This document shows positions 8,275 through 54,327 of a stretch of DNA of 64,000 nucleotides, piece after piece. Position 1 is the first letter of the stretch; each line of letters opens with the position of its first letter. The position numbers and the translations under genes are program-made. Below the pieces are notes generated by a model. That model was not told the origin of the DNA. It did not search any database and saw nothing but the letters and a program-made list of their open reading frames with translations. The stretch comes from Bacteroidota bacterium (lineage in GTDB: Bacteria > Bacteroidota > Bacteroidia > JABDFU01). The stretch lies in contig JACPDY010000023.1 in assembly GCA_016183775.1 (NCBI GenBank), positions 62,001 to 126,000 on the forward strand, read 5' to 3'.

Positions 8275-8282
8275 TGTTTTAA

Positions 8283-8367
8283 GTTAATGAGTTATTAAGT
8301 TATTGGGTTATAAGGCTCGCGGGTTAATTGGATTGAGCATAAATAACTTAATAACCCAATAATTGAA
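8283..8367. repeat. Octamer-phased inverted tract between recJ and the MORN gene
   Basis: Bases 8283-8314 are four 8-mers of the form GTTAnnnn (GTTATTAA and GTTATTGG among them). Bases 8344-8367 are three complementary 8-mers (TAACTTAA and TAACCCAA among them). The arms give a perfect 14-base inverted match (8291-8304 with 8342-8355) and an alternative 12-base match in another register (8300-8311 with 8351-8362). The right arm ends three bases from the stop codon of the MORN gene. The same words recur at 12562-12616. Confidence 0.75.
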
Positions 8368-8370
8368 ACT

Positions 8371-10257: not shown

Positions 10258-10569
10258 ATCAACGAATTGTTTCTGCCTGACCGCAGGCAGGAATTTGTAC
10301 TAATTTACGAATAAAAGGTGCGTATATTTTGAAATTTTACAGTATACCATGGCTACATAAGTTTGCGGAAGACAAACTGGCCAACGCTGCTGGTATAGCC
10401 GGTTCTAATTTCGTTTGCGACGCAAACTCAATAAGTACCGGCATATTAAAGAACTAAATATACCCATGCTTGCGCATTTGCAAACCGCTTACCCCTCTCA
10501 CTTGCGCACTGGCATATACACAGAGGGGATTTTAAAGTCCTCTTTCTTTGGAGAGGATTTAGGTGAGAC
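10258..10569. other. Intergenic region with three dispersed-type palindromes
   Basis: No gene is supported in this 312-base gap between rsmI and corA. It holds CTGCCTG/CAGGCAG at 10273-10290 with a 4-base loop, a near-perfect palindrome GTTTGCGACGCAAAC at 10413-10427, and a hairpin TCCTCT/AGAGGA at 10538-10557 followed by ATTTAGGTGAG. The first resembles the stem inside the tract near 54285. The last resembles a TTTGGAGAGG-type dispersed repeat that I recall from other Bacteroidota genomes, which is memory and not a search result. Confidence 0.6.
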
Positions 10570-11238
10570 TTATTTCTTCCCTTCTACAACAATCACGATC
10601 TCGCCTTTAACAGTTTTACTCTTAAAATAATCTACCAGTTCCTGCAATGTTCCGCGTTTCGTTTCTTCAAACATTTTTGTGAGTTCACGGGAAACAGAGG
10701 CTTTGCGTTCAGGTCCAAAAGCAATGGTGAATTCTTCAAGTGCTTTTACCAATCTGAACGGAGATTCATAAAAAATCATTGTGCGTTCTTCTTCTTTTAA
10801 ATTGTTCAATTTGGTCTGGCGTCCTTTTTTCTGTGGCAGAAATCCCTCGAAACAAAAGCGCTCGCTGGGTAAACCGCTGTTCACCAATGCCGGCACAAAG
10901 GCTGTTGCCCCCGGTAAACACTCCACATCTATTCCGGCTTTCAGGCATTCACGAACGAGCAAAAACCCGGGATCGGAAATGGAAGGTGTGCCGGCATCAC
11001 TTACCAATGCTATTGTTTGCCCTGCTTTAATGCGTTCGATCACCTGTTCTACCGTTTTATGTTCGTTATGCAGGTGGTGCGATTGCAATGGTTTTTCAAT
11101 TTGATAATGGCGAAGTAAGTTGCCTGTTGTACGCGTGTCTTCAGCCAGGATCAGATCTACCTCCTTTAAAATGCGTAGTGCCCGAAGTGTTATGTCTTCG
11201 AGATTTCCGATGGGCGTGGGGATTATAAAAAGTTTCAA
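10570..11238 (-). CDS. rsmI: 16S rRNA (cytidine1402-2'-O)-methyltransferase RsmI
   Basis: RsmI 2'-O-methylates C1402 in the decoding centre of 16S rRNA using S-adenosylmethionine. Family motifs are intact: IPTPIGNLEDITLRAL at the N-terminus, EDTRTTGNLL, ALVSDAGTPSISDPG, the PGATA loop and FYESPFR. At 222 residues it is shorter than the E. coli enzyme because the C-terminal extension is missing. The start is unusual. An in-frame TGA lies two codons upstream and no ATG or GTG precedes the conserved LFIIPTPIG block, so TTG at 11236-11238 is the only usable start. That TTG lies inside a heptamer-repeat tract (11230-11257). Confidence 0.93.
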   Translation of the reverse strand: MKLFIIPTPIGNLEDITLRALRILKEVDLILAEDTRTTGNLLRHYQIEKPLQSHHLHNEHKTVEQVIERIKAGQTIALVSDAGTPSISDPGFLLVRECLKAGIDVECLPGATAFVPALVNSGLPSERFCFEGFLPQKKGRQTKLNNLKEEERTMIFYESPFRLVKALEEFTIAFGPERKASVSRELTKMFEETKRGTLQELVDYFKSKTVKGEIVIVVEGKK

Positions 11239-11257
11239 GTTTCAGGTTTCTGGTTCA
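11230..11257. repeat. Heptamer tract overlapping the rsmI start codon
   Basis: Three consecutive 7-mers of the form A(A/G)GTTTC occupy 11230-11250 and a diverged fourth follows to 11257. On the minus strand they read (T)GAAAC(T/C)T and supply the TTG start of rsmI. Seven-base phasing may continue weakly to 11284, just before the M28 peptidase stop codon. Confidence 0.75.
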
Positions 11258-11284: not shown

Positions 11285-12508
11285 TTACTTTTGCAAGTAT
11301 TCTGTAAAATCAGTCAACAGCCTGAACACATCTTCAAATTTAGTAAGAGGCAATGTTTCCGGCTTGTCGTAAATATCATGGTAGGCTTTTATACCTCCAA
11401 GTGTGTAAATGAAAAAGCATTTGACACCATTTTCGGAAAAAAAATAGTGATCGCTGTTGGTGGCCTTGCCTCGTATTTTTATTTGAGGCAAATATTTTTT
11501 TCCCTCGTTGATCTTTACAAACTCATCAAATTCGGGTTTAAATACAGCACCGTTCACTACAGTTATACCCTCATCGCCTGTGCCAAGCAGGTCGAGGTTG
11601 ATGAGAAATTTTATTTGTTTTAACGGGAACAAAGGGTGCTCAACATAATATTTTGAGCCGAGTAAACCTGCCTCTTCCGCGCCAAAGGCCATAAATGCAA
11701 TGGAATATTCTGGCGGGTGTTGTGAGTAATAGCTGGCCAGGTTAAGCATCAGCGCGCATCCGCTGGCATTATCATTCGCGCCGGGGAAATAAATATTTTT
11801 GCCCATGTGACCCAGGTGATCGTAATGTGCTGAGAAGACAATAAAGCTGTCGGGGTATTGTGTGCCGGGGATATAGCCAATTACATTCTGTGTTGGATAA
11901 TCCCTGATCATTTTGTTTTCAATATTTATTTTCATTTTTTTTGATAATGAATCAAAGGCTGTAGTAGAGATATGTAACATTGGAATACGACTGGAAACAG
12001 TAGCGATATCCATGATAAGCTTGCCTTTTTCAATGAATAGAAGCAGGCAATTGCTGCAATCAGGAGTAATTTGTACGTTTTCCTTTATCACAAAAGCGAC
12101 GCGTGATTTTTTTCTGGAATTTGATCCTGTGAAATCCGCTGCGGAAACATTTTTAATTCCGAACGATCCTTTTTTGCCGGCACTCGTACCTCCAATTATA
12201 AAATCTTTGCCAGGCCTGAGTTGTTTTCCGTCAATTGAAACAAACATTTTACCGGGAAACGTGTTTATGTTTAATTGGAAGTTCTGGAAATAGTTTTGAC
12301 CCCAGAACTTCAACTTAAATTTTTCAAACTCTCCGGCCAGGTATTTTGCCGCGATTTTTTCCCCGTGGTTTACATACCCGCGCCCATGCATGGAAGGGGA
12401 AGCAAGAGTATCAACAATCTTGCGGGCATACTTAATATCCTGGGAAGAAAGAATCTGAAGTAAGAAGTAAAAAGTAAGAAGACAGAAGTACCTTGGGAAG
12501 AATTTCAT
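11285..12508 (-). CDS. Secreted M28-family metallopeptidase
   Basis: This is a 407-residue zinc aminopeptidase-type enzyme with an N-terminal signal peptide of about 22 residues. The M28 metal ligands are visible: H228 (AHYDHLG), D246 (GANDNASG), the catalytic and ligand Glu pair E278/E279 (GAEEAGLLG), D306 (NLDLLG) and H354 (NSDHYFF). The family cleaves N-terminal residues from peptides, usually in the periplasm or outside the cell. The signal peptide's hydrophobic core (residues about 6-20) is encoded by a heptamer tract, AAGTAAG-type words at 12451-12492. The peptidase domain shows no truncation. Confidence 0.93.
   Translation of the reverse strand: MKFFPRYFCLLTFYFLLQILSSQDIKYARKIVDTLASPSMHGRGYVNHGEKIAAKYLAGEFEKFKLKFWGQNYFQNFQLNINTFPGKMFVSIDGKQLRPGKDFIIGGTSAGKKGSFGIKNVSAADFTGSNSRKKSRVAFVIKENVQITPDCSNCLLLFIEKGKLIMDIATVSSRIPMLHISTTAFDSLSKKMKINIENKMIRDYPTQNVIGYIPGTQYPDSFIVFSAHYDHLGHMGKNIYFPGANDNASGCALMLNLASYYSQHPPEYSIAFMAFGAEEAGLLGSKYYVEHPLFPLKQIKFLINLDLLGTGDEGITVVNGAVFKPEFDEFVKINEGKKYLPQIKIRGKATNSDHYFFSENGVKCFFIYTLGGIKAYHDIYDKPETLPLTKFEDVFRLLTDFTEYLQK
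12451..12492. repeat. Heptamer tract inside the M28 signal-peptide coding region
   Basis: Six consecutive 7-mers fill this segment. Four of them begin AAGTA (AAGTAAG occurs twice, then AAGTAAA and AAGTACC). On the coding strand they give Thr/Tyr/Phe/Leu codons that form the hydrophobic core of the signal peptide. The segment stays in frame with the conserved peptidase downstream. Confidence 0.75.
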
Positions 12509-12561
12509 TCTGATGGTGTAGTTATTCGGTACAGTTCATTGATAAACATAAACTACCTGAA

Positions 12562-12616
12562 TAACTTAGTAACTCATTAACTTAATAACCCATAACTAAT
12601 AACTCATTAACCAAAC
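12562..12616. repeat. Octamer tract between the M28 peptidase and the next gene
   Basis: A run of TAACnnnn words (TAACTTAG, TAACTCAT, TAACTTAA, TAACCCAT) with one 7-base slip reaches to within two bases of the stop codon at 12619. The same words occur as the reverse complement at 8283-8314, so the two sites are copies of one element type. Confidence 0.75.
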
Positions 12617-41191: not shown

Positions 41192-41250
41192 TTGTTGACT
41201 TGGTAATACCCTAAGTCAACAATCCTACAATTCAGCAATTCAACAATTTA
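41192..41250. repeat. Stem-loop plus octamer tract after the aminotransferase
   Basis: TTGTTGACTT (41192-41201) pairs perfectly with AAGTCAACAA (41213-41222) across an 11-base loop, 4 bases after the stop codon. Octamers such as AATTCAGC and AATTCAAC then continue to 41250. The hairpin could end transcription but has no U-run. The words match the in-gene tract at 34553-34587. Confidence 0.65.
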
Positions 41251-42429: not shown

Positions 42430-42455
42430 CCAAATTAACTTCCATAAACCCCCTT

Positions 42456-42548
42456 AGTATTCGGTAATCAGTAATCGGTATTCGGTGAGATTGTTCAACT
42501 GATTACCTTTTTTACCGATAACTGATTACCGATCACCGAATACCAATT
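42456..42548. repeat. Inverted pair of heptamer arrays between convergent genes
   Basis: Left arm 42456-42490: five 7-mers such as GGTAATC, AGTAATC and GGTATTC. Right arm 42514-42548: five complementary-type 7-mers such as ACCGATA, ACTGATT and ACCGAAT. The right arm ends exactly at the stop codon of the minus-strand gene (42549). The same words occur in both arms in a different order, so several alternative hairpins can form. It may serve both convergent genes as a terminator. Confidence 0.75.
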
Positions 42549-47828: not shown

Positions 47829-47831
47829 AAT

Positions 47832-47907
47832 GGTTTCAGGTTGCAGGTTTCAAGTAAAACCCAACCCGAAACCCGAAACCCGAAACCCGAAACCTGAACC
47901 TGAAACC
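47832..47907. repeat. Telomere-like heptamer hairpin between ctaB and coxIII
   Basis: Bases 47832-47851 and 47889-47907 form an almost perfect 20-base inverted repeat (one base unpaired). Four exact ACCCGAA heptamers at 47864-47891 and a variant ACCTGAA fill the loop and right arm. The element occupies nearly the whole intergenic gap. Confidence 0.85.
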
Positions 47908-47911
47908 AAAT

Positions 47912-49285: not shown

Positions 49286-49404
49286 GGGACGAGGGAAAGG
49301 AGACGGGGCACGAGTGTTCCAAATTGCCAATCGCCGTTTGCAAACTAATGCAAACATAAACGAGAACTTGAAACATATGAATATTAAACTCTAAACTTAA
49401 AGAT
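49286..49404. repeat. Heptamer tract that fills the coxIII-coxIV gap exactly
   Basis: The gap is 119 bases, exactly 17 x 7, from the stop codon of coxIII to the ATG of coxIV. In this phase the first words are GGGACGA-like purine heptads, the middle ones are TTGC/CAATCGC-like and the last are TTAAACT and CTAAACT. The first two blocks match the element at 32594-32685 and the last matches 54264-54319. Confidence 0.7.
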
Positions 49405-50670: not shown

Positions 50671-52653
50671 TTACTTCACAATTATCCTACCCAATAAATT
50701 ATTAAAATAGGATTTGGCTTCGTCCAATTGCTTTTGTTTTTGCTGAAACATTACTATCTCATTCTCATCAGCGGCATCCTTAAGCAGCTTAAGGTTTTCA
50801 TCTATCATACGCTGAATGTATTTAGCTTTAAGCGTATTTACATATTTATAAATAGTCGCCTTTAAGTTTTCTTCCTCAGTTCCAACCAGAATATTATGCC
50901 GGCTCCATTCTGCTAATGTATACGGACTACTCACCAGGTCGATGACTGTTTTACTTACATTAACATCATCCTGGTTTATAAATGAATTCATATTCGGAAG
51001 CTGCCCATTAGTGATACCCACTGAATAACTACTATAGATGAACTGGTAAGCCTGGTTTTTGAACAGGATATTATCCTGAGCGAGTTCATGCAAAATAAGT
51101 TCGGCTGCAGTTATCGAAGTTTCAACTGGCTCCCCGTCTTCATCTTCATTTGTTACGATCACATTTCTATCGCCAAAATTCAGCAATATTCTTATAATAT
51201 TCCTTTCCTGTTGTTCAATTCCATTGGGATCGATGGATTCTTTCGGCACTCCGGTCACCACTTCAGTAGAAGTTACATTTTCAGAAGGACTGTCTTCTGA
51301 TCTGTATTTATCCGACACACGCTTTCTCCTTATTCTGTTAAGTTCATTCAACAGCATCTGCTCGTCCATCTCCATCAAACGGCTGCACTCTTTTATATAT
51401 ACCGAACGATGGATAGCTTCAGGAATAACAGCGATACTTTCAACAATGTCCTTAATAAGATTGGCCCTCTTTATCGGATCGCTTGACACTTCCGAATAAA
51501 GCATCATTGTTTTAAACGCGATAAAATCCTTGGTGTTATCAGCAATAAATTTTTTCAGTTCCTGGTAACTCACCCGTTTGGAAAATGAATCGGGGTCATC
51601 GCCGTCCGGAAACAACAATACCTTTACATTCATTCCTTCCTCTAGGATCATATCAATACCCCTGAAACTAGCTTTTATACCGGCACTGTCACCATCGTAA
51701 AGAATGGTAATGTTTTGCGTATAGCGTTTTATCTGCCTGATCTGTTCTACTGTTAATGAAGTGCCGGATGAAGCGACCACATTCTCAATTCCGGCCTGAT
51801 GCATGGAAATAACATCGGTGTATCCTTCTACCAGGTAACAATTATCATCCGCTATAATGGATTTCTTGGCAAAGAACAAACCGTACAGCACATTGCTCTT
51901 GTGGTAAATGTCGGTTTCAGGCGAGTTAATGTACTTGGCTAACTTTTTATCCGTCTTCAGTATACGTCCGCCAAAAGCAATGGGGCGGCCGGTAACATTG
52001 TGGATAGGGAAAATAACACGTCCGGCGAAACGGTCGAAGGCAAGTTCCGGGTTCCGGGTTCCGGGTTCCAGATTCTCCTGCGTTTTATCAATTGTCAGTC
52101 CTGCTTTAACCAGGTAATCCAGCTTATAGCCTTTACTCAATGCGTCTTTGGTAAAAGCTTTGCGCTCTTCAAGAGCATATCCCAACTGAAATTTTTCAAT
52201 GACATCGTCGCGAAAGCCACGTTCTTTAAAATAACTCAGCCCGACAGAGCGGCCTTCATCGGTGTTAAATAAATTATTTGTAAAATATTTCTGCGCATGT
52301 GTGCAAACTACAAATAAACTCTCGCGCTCGTTCTGGCTTTGCAGTTGCTCAGGTGTTTGCTCTTTTTCTTCAATCTCAATATTGTATTTTCTGGCGAGGT
52401 AGCGCAACGCGTCAGGATAGGTCATTTGGTCATGATCCATCATGAAGTTTACTGAGTTGCCGGCTTTACCGCAGCCAAAACATTTATAAATGCCTTTGGC
52501 AGGGGACACAGTGAATGAAGGGGTTTTTTCGTTGTGAAAAGGACACAACCCAAGCAAATTCGCTCCACGTTTTTTCAGGGTAACAAAATCACCCACCACT
52601 TCCTCTATACGGGCAGCGTCAAAAATTTTATCTATAGTGTCTTTTGGTATCAT
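50671..52653 (-). CDS. dnaG: DNA primase DnaG
   Basis: DnaG makes RNA primers for replication. The 660-residue protein has the CHC2 zinc ribbon (CPFHNEKTPSF...KCFGCGKAGN, about 38-65), the TOPRIM catalytic core (LVEGYTDVISMHQ; LYDGDSAGIKASFRG) and a helicase-binding C-terminal region. Between the zinc and catalytic parts, residues about 192-203 (PGTRNPE and neighbours) are encoded by a heptamer tract (GTTCCGG repeated three times, 52044-52064). They look like an insert in a variable linker just before FDRFAGRVIFPI. Confidence 0.96.
   Translation of the reverse strand: MIPKDTIDKIFDAARIEEVVGDFVTLKKRGANLLGLCPFHNEKTPSFTVSPAKGIYKCFGCGKAGNSVNFMMDHDQMTYPDALRYLARKYNIEIEEKEQTPEQLQSQNERESLFVVCTHAQKYFTNNLFNTDEGRSVGLSYFKERGFRDDVIEKFQLGYALEERKAFTKDALSKGYKLDYLVKAGLTIDKTQENLEPGTRNPELAFDRFAGRVIFPIHNVTGRPIAFGGRILKTDKKLAKYINSPETDIYHKSNVLYGLFFAKKSIIADDNCYLVEGYTDVISMHQAGIENVVASSGTSLTVEQIRQIKRYTQNITILYDGDSAGIKASFRGIDMILEEGMNVKVLLFPDGDDPDSFSKRVSYQELKKFIADNTKDFIAFKTMMLYSEVSSDPIKRANLIKDIVESIAVIPEAIHRSVYIKECSRLMEMDEQMLLNELNRIRRKRVSDKYRSEDSPSENVTSTEVVTGVPKESIDPNGIEQQERNIIRILLNFGDRNVIVTNEDEDGEPVETSITAAELILHELAQDNILFKNQAYQFIYSSYSVGITNGQLPNMNSFINQDDVNVSKTVIDLVSSPYTLAEWSRHNILVGTEEENLKATIYKYVNTLKAKYIQRMIDENLKLLKDAADENEIVMFQQKQKQLDEAKSYFNNLLGRIIVK
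52044..52078. repeat. Heptamer tract inside dnaG
   Basis: Three exact copies of GTTCCGG (52044-52064), one GTTCCAG and one diverged 7-mer lie in frame inside dnaG. The reverse complement, GGAACCC-type words, is one base change from the ACCCGAA/GAAACCC words of the intergenic tract at 47864-47891. Confidence 0.85.
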
Positions 52654-54249: not shown

Positions 54250-54263
54250 ATCGAGGTACAACA

Positions 54264-54327
54264 CCAAACTCTAAACTATAAACCTGCCTGACGGACAGGC
54301 AAGCATTAAACTTTAAACTTACTTATT
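54264..54327. repeat. Heptamer tract flanking a GCCTG hairpin
   Basis: CCAAACT and CTAAACT precede, and two TTAAACT copies follow, a stem TGCCTG/CAGGCA (54285-54301). The 7-base phase is kept across the hairpin, and the tract reaches to the ATG of the 29-residue protein. Confidence 0.8.

Follow-up and report, generated by a model that had tools for sequence, protein, structure and literature searches.

Intergenic DNA in this Bacteroidota genome contains dispersed arrays of degenerate 7- and 8-base words, and these arrays often occur as inverted pairs in which a G-rich word array forms the 5' arm of a hairpin and its reverse complement forms the 3' arm. The inverted pairing is the main feature of the tracts and was missed by an earlier note on this DNA, which had described their periodicity; period and hairpin architecture are what the tracts have in common. 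We observed the period, the pairing, the polarity of the arms, the dispersal of words, the length and word differences between orthologous gaps, and the likeness of arms within single elements. The pattern suggests slippage and template switching as causes, and we consider it probable that the dispersed hairpin arrays are maintained by 7/8-nt replication slippage together with template switching from arm to arm.

The window analyzed is a stretch of 64,000 nt (G000:C23:62001-126000) from an assembly of 4.54 Mb in 164 contigs (G000); positions given without a locus name are window positions, and features are on the + strand unless noted. Statistics for G000 were drawn from 758 kb taken as stretches (17% of the 4.54 Mb), which included 65.6 kb of intergenic DNA. 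Because genes were called by a greedy ORF rule, the boundaries of the gaps are approximate. Lag autocorrelation in gaps was scored against dinucleotide shuffles, and individual positions were tested in 71-base windows against shuffled controls. The comparison set consisted of a same-genus genome (G002, ~86% identical), three further genomes (G004, G001 and G005), and stretches from the class's other families. For the cytochrome oxidase subunit III protein encoded in the window, the nearest named records were mostly uncultured Bacteroidota, the best of them 70-78% identical.

Periodicity of intergenic tracts

The phasing described in the earlier note was recovered as an autocorrelation excess at lags 7 and 8, both in the window alone (z=4.1 and z=2.5, respectively) and in the 758-kb sample. 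In the latter, lag 7 reached z=9.1 and lag 8 reached z=9.2 (15 intergenic tracts vs 2.4 in shuffles). As is characteristic of heptamer SSRs, 7-nt tandem units exceeded expectation and were mainly intergenic (65 tracts at lag 7 vs 3.3 in shuffles), with a weaker lag-7 excess in coding sequence (23 vs 7). The excess was restricted to 7, 8 and their multiples: across the 758 kb, lags 5, 9 and 12 exhibited little or none, and no lag below 14 other than 7 and 8 approached their tract excess. The phase had been called strict, which was an overstatement, as 7- and 8-base steps intermingle within tracts.

About twelve of the 17 positions originally listed stood out locally. Nine were strong in the 71-base test (11230, 12451, 42456, 47864, 52044, 54264, 8283, 12562 and 41214) and three were marginal (34553, 37144 and 54306), while the remaining five (32594, 48523, 49286, 49384 and 50610) could not be separated from shuffles once all lags were allowed. 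Some of the listed positions are not purely intergenic: 52044 falls within the primase gene dnaG, and 11230, 12451 and 34553 are inside or at the ends of listed ORFs.

The gap that had been singled out, 49286-49404, lies between cox3-like and cox4-like genes, with a weak GGGACGA-type start and a TTAAACT end. Its tract was among the weakest listed (P 0.02 at lag 7, rising to 0.2 across lags 4-12), being in phase only over its first 28 bases (GGGACGA GGGAAAG GAGACGG GGCACGA) and in the TTAAACT CTAAACT end. Its length of 119 bases had been read as 17 x 7 and as an exact filling from stop to start; this is attributable to chance, since the lengths of tract-bearing gaps are flatly distributed modulo 7 (9, 7, 9, 9, 6, 3, 5), a result that rules out gap length as a multiple of 7. 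Orthologous gaps carry other words and measure 87 (G002), 56 (G004), 32 (G001) and 172 (G005) bases. GGGACGA-type arrays are also present in G002 and L240, and a tract of this type occupies the G002 gap orthologous to L115:12631, which in G000 holds a GGTTTCA hairpin.

Hairpin architecture and arm polarity

Inverted repeats scoring at least 12 were found in 53 gaps of the G000 sample and in 0 shuffled gaps. At a score of at least 11 there were 59 hairpins, of which 35 had periodic arms (period 7 in 25, period 8 in 8). The G-rich arm was 5' in 31 of these 35 (31:4); non-periodic hairpins were split 11:9. A strict word search with eight families returned 20 convergent and 0 divergent neighbor pairs. 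The arms pair in multiple registers, one unit apart, and many tracts have no inverted partner. In G006, which belongs to another family, the same polarity was evident (13:1) with other words (GGTTTCG, TTGGCAG, AGAGTAG). A universal G-left rule was rejected, however, because the polarity seen in G000 and G006 is broken in G103 (8:7).

Several elements in the window illustrate this layout. The 5' arm at 47832-47851 (GGTTTCA GGTTGCA GGTTTC), detected as a lag-7 tract and as an inverted repeat, is matched by a 3' arm at 47863-47908 consisting of (AACCCGA)x4, AACCTGA ... AACCTGAAACCA (92% matches by TRF), so that GGTTTCAGGTTGCAGGTTTC stands opposite (AACCCGA)n. The 3' arm has a local score of 28, which no shuffle reached, and the hairpin's arms, 12-20 nt long, are 83-100% complementary across registers that mostly differ by 7 bases. 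A second hairpin, of the GGTAATC/GGTATTC family and located between convergent genes, pairs 33-nt arms at 42454-42486 and 42514-42546 (ACCGATAACTGATTACCGATCACCGAATACC) that are 82% complementary, with a 20-nt core at 95%; its arms are TTAGTATTCGGTAATCAGTAATCGGTATTCGGT and ACCGATAACTGATTACCGATCACCGAATACCAA. Both hairpins have orthologues in G002, the first with different words in the same hairpin, the second with both arms shorter.

Octamers form comparable structures. A lag-8 tract unmatched by shuffles supplies the 5' arm at 8278-8304 (AGTTATTA/AGTTATTG family), and the 3' arm at 8342-8368 (AATAACTT AATAACCC AATAATTG) completes a hairpin of 27-nt arms, 85% complementary, in which AGTTATTA/G is opposite AATAACTT/C. 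The octamer array TAACTTAA/TAACTCAT at 12554-12611 is joined in the orthologous G002 gap by an inverted partner, GGTTATTGAGTTGGTGAGTTATT. At 41192-41248, a TTGTTGACTT / AAGTCAACAA stem (inverted repeat score 10) is followed by an octamer array, ACAATTCA/GCAATTCA, that forms a lag-8 tract; this element is largely gone in G002, where the gap is 37 bases vs 123.

Two heptamer arrays found by TRF and unmatched by shuffles lie at 11230-11255 (AAGTTTC AAGTTTC AGGTTTC TGGTTC, of the same family as the 47832 hairpin) and 12457-12490 (GAAGTAA). The array at 52044-52069 consists of GTTCCGG x3.7 inside dnaG (ORF 50671-52653, minus strand) at about codon 203. G002 keeps this array with point changes and G004 is without it, a length difference that appears to preserve the frame. 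Finally, at 54260-54320, an AAACTCT/AAACTAT array is followed by a 17-base palindrome, TGCCTGACGGACAGGCA (54285-54301, missing from G002 and G004), and then by TTAAACT x2.1.

This last palindrome belongs to a separate group of 17-22 nt TGCCTG..CAGGCA palindromes that also occur at window position 10274, L006:3264, L018:14248 and L104:12832. Their presence varies between orthologous gaps; in G002, one is inserted at gap L021:5167 and another within a heptamer arm at L021:11972.

Matched stems between genes could also be RNA hairpins (terminators, attenuators or mRNA stabilizers) in which selection keeps the stem and the words drift. The arms are indeed matched to one another, folding of the transcribed strand is strong in 42 codirectional gaps (mean z -5.4), and in G006 the hairpins are enriched between convergent genes (9 of 18 gaps). 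Yet A.C mismatches outnumber G.U mismatches on the transcribed strand (70:45), and this strand folds worse than the opposite one in 29 of the 42 gaps, which is the reverse of what selection for RNA pairing would produce and makes mRNA hairpin selection unlikely. G000 shows no orientation preference (18% of codirectional, 14% of divergent and 12% of convergent gaps), and the hairpins are mostly absent from orthologous cox gaps of named Bacteroidota. We therefore regard selected RNA hairpins as improbable. Intrinsic terminators were rejected on the same mismatch ratio, as the transcribed-strand stem is not favored, and on the lack of an orientation preference in G000.

Word families and their dispersal

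The words fall into families, as the earlier note had proposed: pairs of tracts at different loci share an identical word in 5.9% of cases, compared to 0.13% for random 7-mers (~45x). Several unrelated families exist side by side in G000, including GGTTTCA, GTTCAAG, TTGTTAG, GGTAATC, AGTCGGA and the 8-base GTTATTGA. Dispersal was borne out as a pattern, with families recurring at unrelated loci. GGTTTC arrays are patchy within the class, where 12 of 295 genomes carry them; G006 gave 203 matches and G000 gave 27, and a reversed control pattern matched nothing in either. Other Bacteroidota share the period with quite different words. The proposal of one mobile or slippage-based class found support in part: slippage and a dispersal pattern are supported, whereas a single origin is not, given the coexistence of unrelated families and the different words in other Bacteroidota.

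Word sharing also bears on whether the tracts are independent microsatellites that arose by slippage at random seeds, their inverted partners being incidental. Such a reading would agree with the finding that heptamers outnumber the other longer SSR classes in many bacteria (Mrazek 2007, as cited in PMC4679880 and PMC4692102) and with the recurrence of one period with different words among Bacteroidota. It is at odds with the rate of word sharing and with both the inverted-repeat count and the exclusively convergent neighbor pairs; it is already disfavored, and we consider it very improbable.

Alternatively, the arrays could be MITE- or REPIN-like non-autonomous elements, each inserted by a transposase that recognizes the hairpin and only later decorated by slippage. 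Word families at many loci, their patchiness across the class, and an arm polarity that is fixed within families would all suit mobile elements, as would the clean presence or absence of other short palindromic families in G000 (L118:15419, L006:12088, L115:13987). However, no clean empty site with a target duplication was found for the heptamer hairpins among the orthologous sites compared, and these sites tend to carry other words or shrunken arms. Beyond the words themselves the ends are unconserved, with no conserved 16-mer ends among family members. Moreover, the palindromes at the three Y1_Tnp loci that were read, out of eight matches, are short and GC-rich (CAACCCCGAAGGGGTTG, GGCTCCTCCGGAGCC, TTGGCTGAAGCCAA) rather than heptamer arrays, and array-poor genomes have Y1_Tnp genes too. 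Insertion by a hairpin-recognizing transposase is accordingly, in our estimation, an unlikely though not negligible account. RAYT/IS200 was specifically rejected as driver because Y1_Tnp genes are common in array-poor genomes and the palindromes beside them at the three G000 loci are of another kind; RAYT-driven movement is unlikely.

The Y1_Tnp (RAYT-like) genes, at L108:13430-14250, L115:7292-7792 and L024:7120-7374, have palindromes of their own, one of them (GGCTCCTCCGGAGCC) in several copies, which represents the classic REP arrangement in a Bacteroidota. Other palindromic families were noted in G000. A MITE-like element of ~150 bases (L118:15419-15580; ends AGAGTTTATATCGATTAA / TTATTCGATATAATCTCT, internal TTTGGTG hairpin) is absent from the corresponding site in G002, which has further copies. 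Two palindromic families, at L006:12088-12278 (GAATATCGAACAAGGAAT) and L115:13987-14105 (AACGCTGAT..ATCTGCGTT), are likewise absent from G002 (191 vs 14 and 119 vs 20 bases, respectively). CACAGAG/CTCTGTG palindromes are dispersed between genes (L012:16071, L107:15087, L113:15277, L005:14762), and the TTCGACAGGCTCA family is dispersed in the G000 sample (L009:7495, L010:4286, L118:12663).

Orthologous gaps between species

We compared 53 gaps between G000 and G002, whose flanking genes are ~86% identical. A tract was present in both genomes in 8 gaps, in G000 only in 8 and in G002 only in 6. Words in orthologous gaps of the genus were longer, shorter, different or absent, and the two arms can change jointly. 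The orthologue comparison leans mainly on G002, a fragmented assembly in which some gaps are hidden by contig ends; arrays may lie behind contig breaks at certain gaps of these metagenome genomes.

Copy number differs between the two relatives in whole units, as in heptamer SSRs: a single 7-base indel separates the orthologues at L109:19029, and the right arm at window position 47829 differs by 35 bases. These cases, in which the period is kept, support slippage; several other orthologue length differences are not multiples of 7.

At L109:5564, a GGTTTCA hairpin in G000 stands where G002 has a GGTTCCG/GTTCAAA hairpin. Here arms paired well within their own genomes (scores of 16.5 and 22.5) and poorly across genomes (7.5 and 10.0; shuffle 8.6). 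Summed over six orthologous pairs, within-genome pairing was higher by a modest amount that came mainly from one pair (172 vs 140.5). Arms of the same element were also more alike than arms of other elements (17.2 vs 13.8; 7 of 10,000 permutations, n=13), in a test in which arm regions were chosen by words alone and not by best pairing. In these unbiased regions, GGTTTC alone reached no more than P about 0.02 (n=9), and GTTGTT alone showed no own-arm effect (n=4). An apparent transfer between arms was found at L116:9281, where in G000 AAACAACC forms part of the right-arm unit, which is expanded, and recurs in the left arm as its reverse complement, GGTTGTTT; the orthologue in G002 (L222:3589) has AAACAACC only outside the right arm. 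This case is a single locus, its direction assigned by parsimony from two genomes.

In named, more distant Bacteroidota, just 6 of 70 orthologous cox gaps contained a tract, with other words, which bears out the earlier suggestion that the tracts are not ordinary conserved spacers. When all gaps of these records were considered, lag 7 alone among the short lags had a clear excess of tracts (8 vs 0.6).

A proposed mechanism

Under the reading that we favor, slippage with template switching, the tracts would be arms or arm remnants of an element made of n word copies, a loop of ~3-80 bases, and m reverse-complement copies. Both arms being tandem, a strand could self-pair in many registers one unit apart, and a slip by whole units would leave it still pairable. 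Slippage of this kind would account for a period kept without word conservation. A polymerase that switches template between arms would copy variants of one arm into the other, and such copying would explain why the arms stay matched. Template switching has been reported to make and mend hairpins (PMC8794818) and to operate on E. coli quasipalindromes (PMC7202029). Slippage would thus maintain the period and template switching the arm match, neither preserving the word; words would drift and be replaced while period and palindrome persist. Purely local slippage leaves the recurrence of a word at many loci unexplained, which calls for a step of spreading, possibly ectopic copying or a further mobile route. 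A cellular function would not be required.

A bolder version, which we put forward tentatively, holds that these are self-templating DNA hairpins with no dedicated enzyme, slippage and arm copying keeping the form over long periods and leaving the word free, with fold-back mainly of the G-rich strand. Speculatively, the preference for a G-rich 5' arm could follow from fold-back of that strand via G.T or G.A contacts. If true, this would explain the mostly G-first pairing of unrelated words in unrelated phyla, and the form would be inherited, the sequence not.

Relation to known repeats

Convergent G-rich heptamer pairs in Xanthomonas, TAACTGA arrays, and a general bacterial heptamer excess are already known. 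Xanthomonas campestris and axonopodis genomes each contain 70-75 convergent, stem-loop-capable pairs of GGGAATC heptamer repeats, few of them between divergent genes (Rehm et al. 2015, PMC4692102). Like these, the arrays described here are dispersed, intergenic and degenerate, have the G-rich word convergent, and vary in length and sequence between relatives; the arrangement of same-word arrays convergent with the G-rich word first was found in G000 and not in G103. Xanthomonas has one GGG-bearing family, read as G-quadruplex-forming, whereas here there are several families, mostly without GGG runs (the GGG tracts needed for G-quadruplexes are missing from GGTTTCA, TTGTTAG, GGTAATC and GTTATTGA), and the word itself changes at orthologous sites.

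TAACTGA repeats, which are likewise short intergenic direct heptamers, occur in Beggiatoaceae, Cyanobacteria and a few Bacteroidetes, the last of which have other heptamers alongside (MacGregor 2015, PMC4679880). Relatives without the repeats have shorter gaps, and indels between Cyanothece strains are mostly 7-nt steps; in BOGUAY, the repeats lie just upstream of starts, with one indirect repeat, and translational regulation was suggested (PMC4679880). That system has a single word, whereas inverted pairs are frequent here and no rule of placement upstream of starts was seen. AACTGAC/ACTGACA arrays do occur in G000 (L012:12840), TAACTGA not being the dominant word.

Period 7 is favored likewise in cyanobacterial STRR heptamers. 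The small dispersed repeats (SDR) of Nostoc punctiforme, reportedly described by Elhai et al. in 2008, are said to be tiny hairpins often embedded in heptamer arrays. The TGCCTG..CAGGCA palindromes inside arrays here resemble them; the heptamer hairpins are longer, periodic and variable. As cited in PMC4679880 and PMC4692102, Mrazek et al. (2007) found an excess of heptanucleotides among long SSRs, with period 7 favored, and proposed slippage, 7 nt being the polymerase contact length. Such LSSR surveys, as reported there, counted direct repeats, with hairpin pairing and arm matching outside their scope. REPINs are RAYT-mobilized inverted doublets with conserved 16-mer ends that occur beside RAYT genes (Bertels & Rainey 2011, PMC3116915). 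They share with our elements the inverted doublet and long extragenic hairpins with compensatory changes, and differ in that the arms described here lack conserved ends and are composed of tandem heptamers, and that the palindromes in the three Y1_Tnp neighborhoods read are of other kinds.

Within the literature searched, most subscription papers being outside its reach, we found no Bacteroidota heptamer hairpins and no description of a single Bacteroidota genome with several coexisting word families, of octamer families built alike, of orthologous word replacement or of arm transfer. Heptamer arrays have long been counted in bacteria, but the number seven, the recurrence at many loci and the differences between related species have gone unexplained. 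The way the hairpins are laid out, their polarity and the joint changes of arms at orthologous sites lead to a concrete, testable mutational explanation, and they advise caution: matched intergenic stems that covary do not necessarily indicate selected RNA structure.
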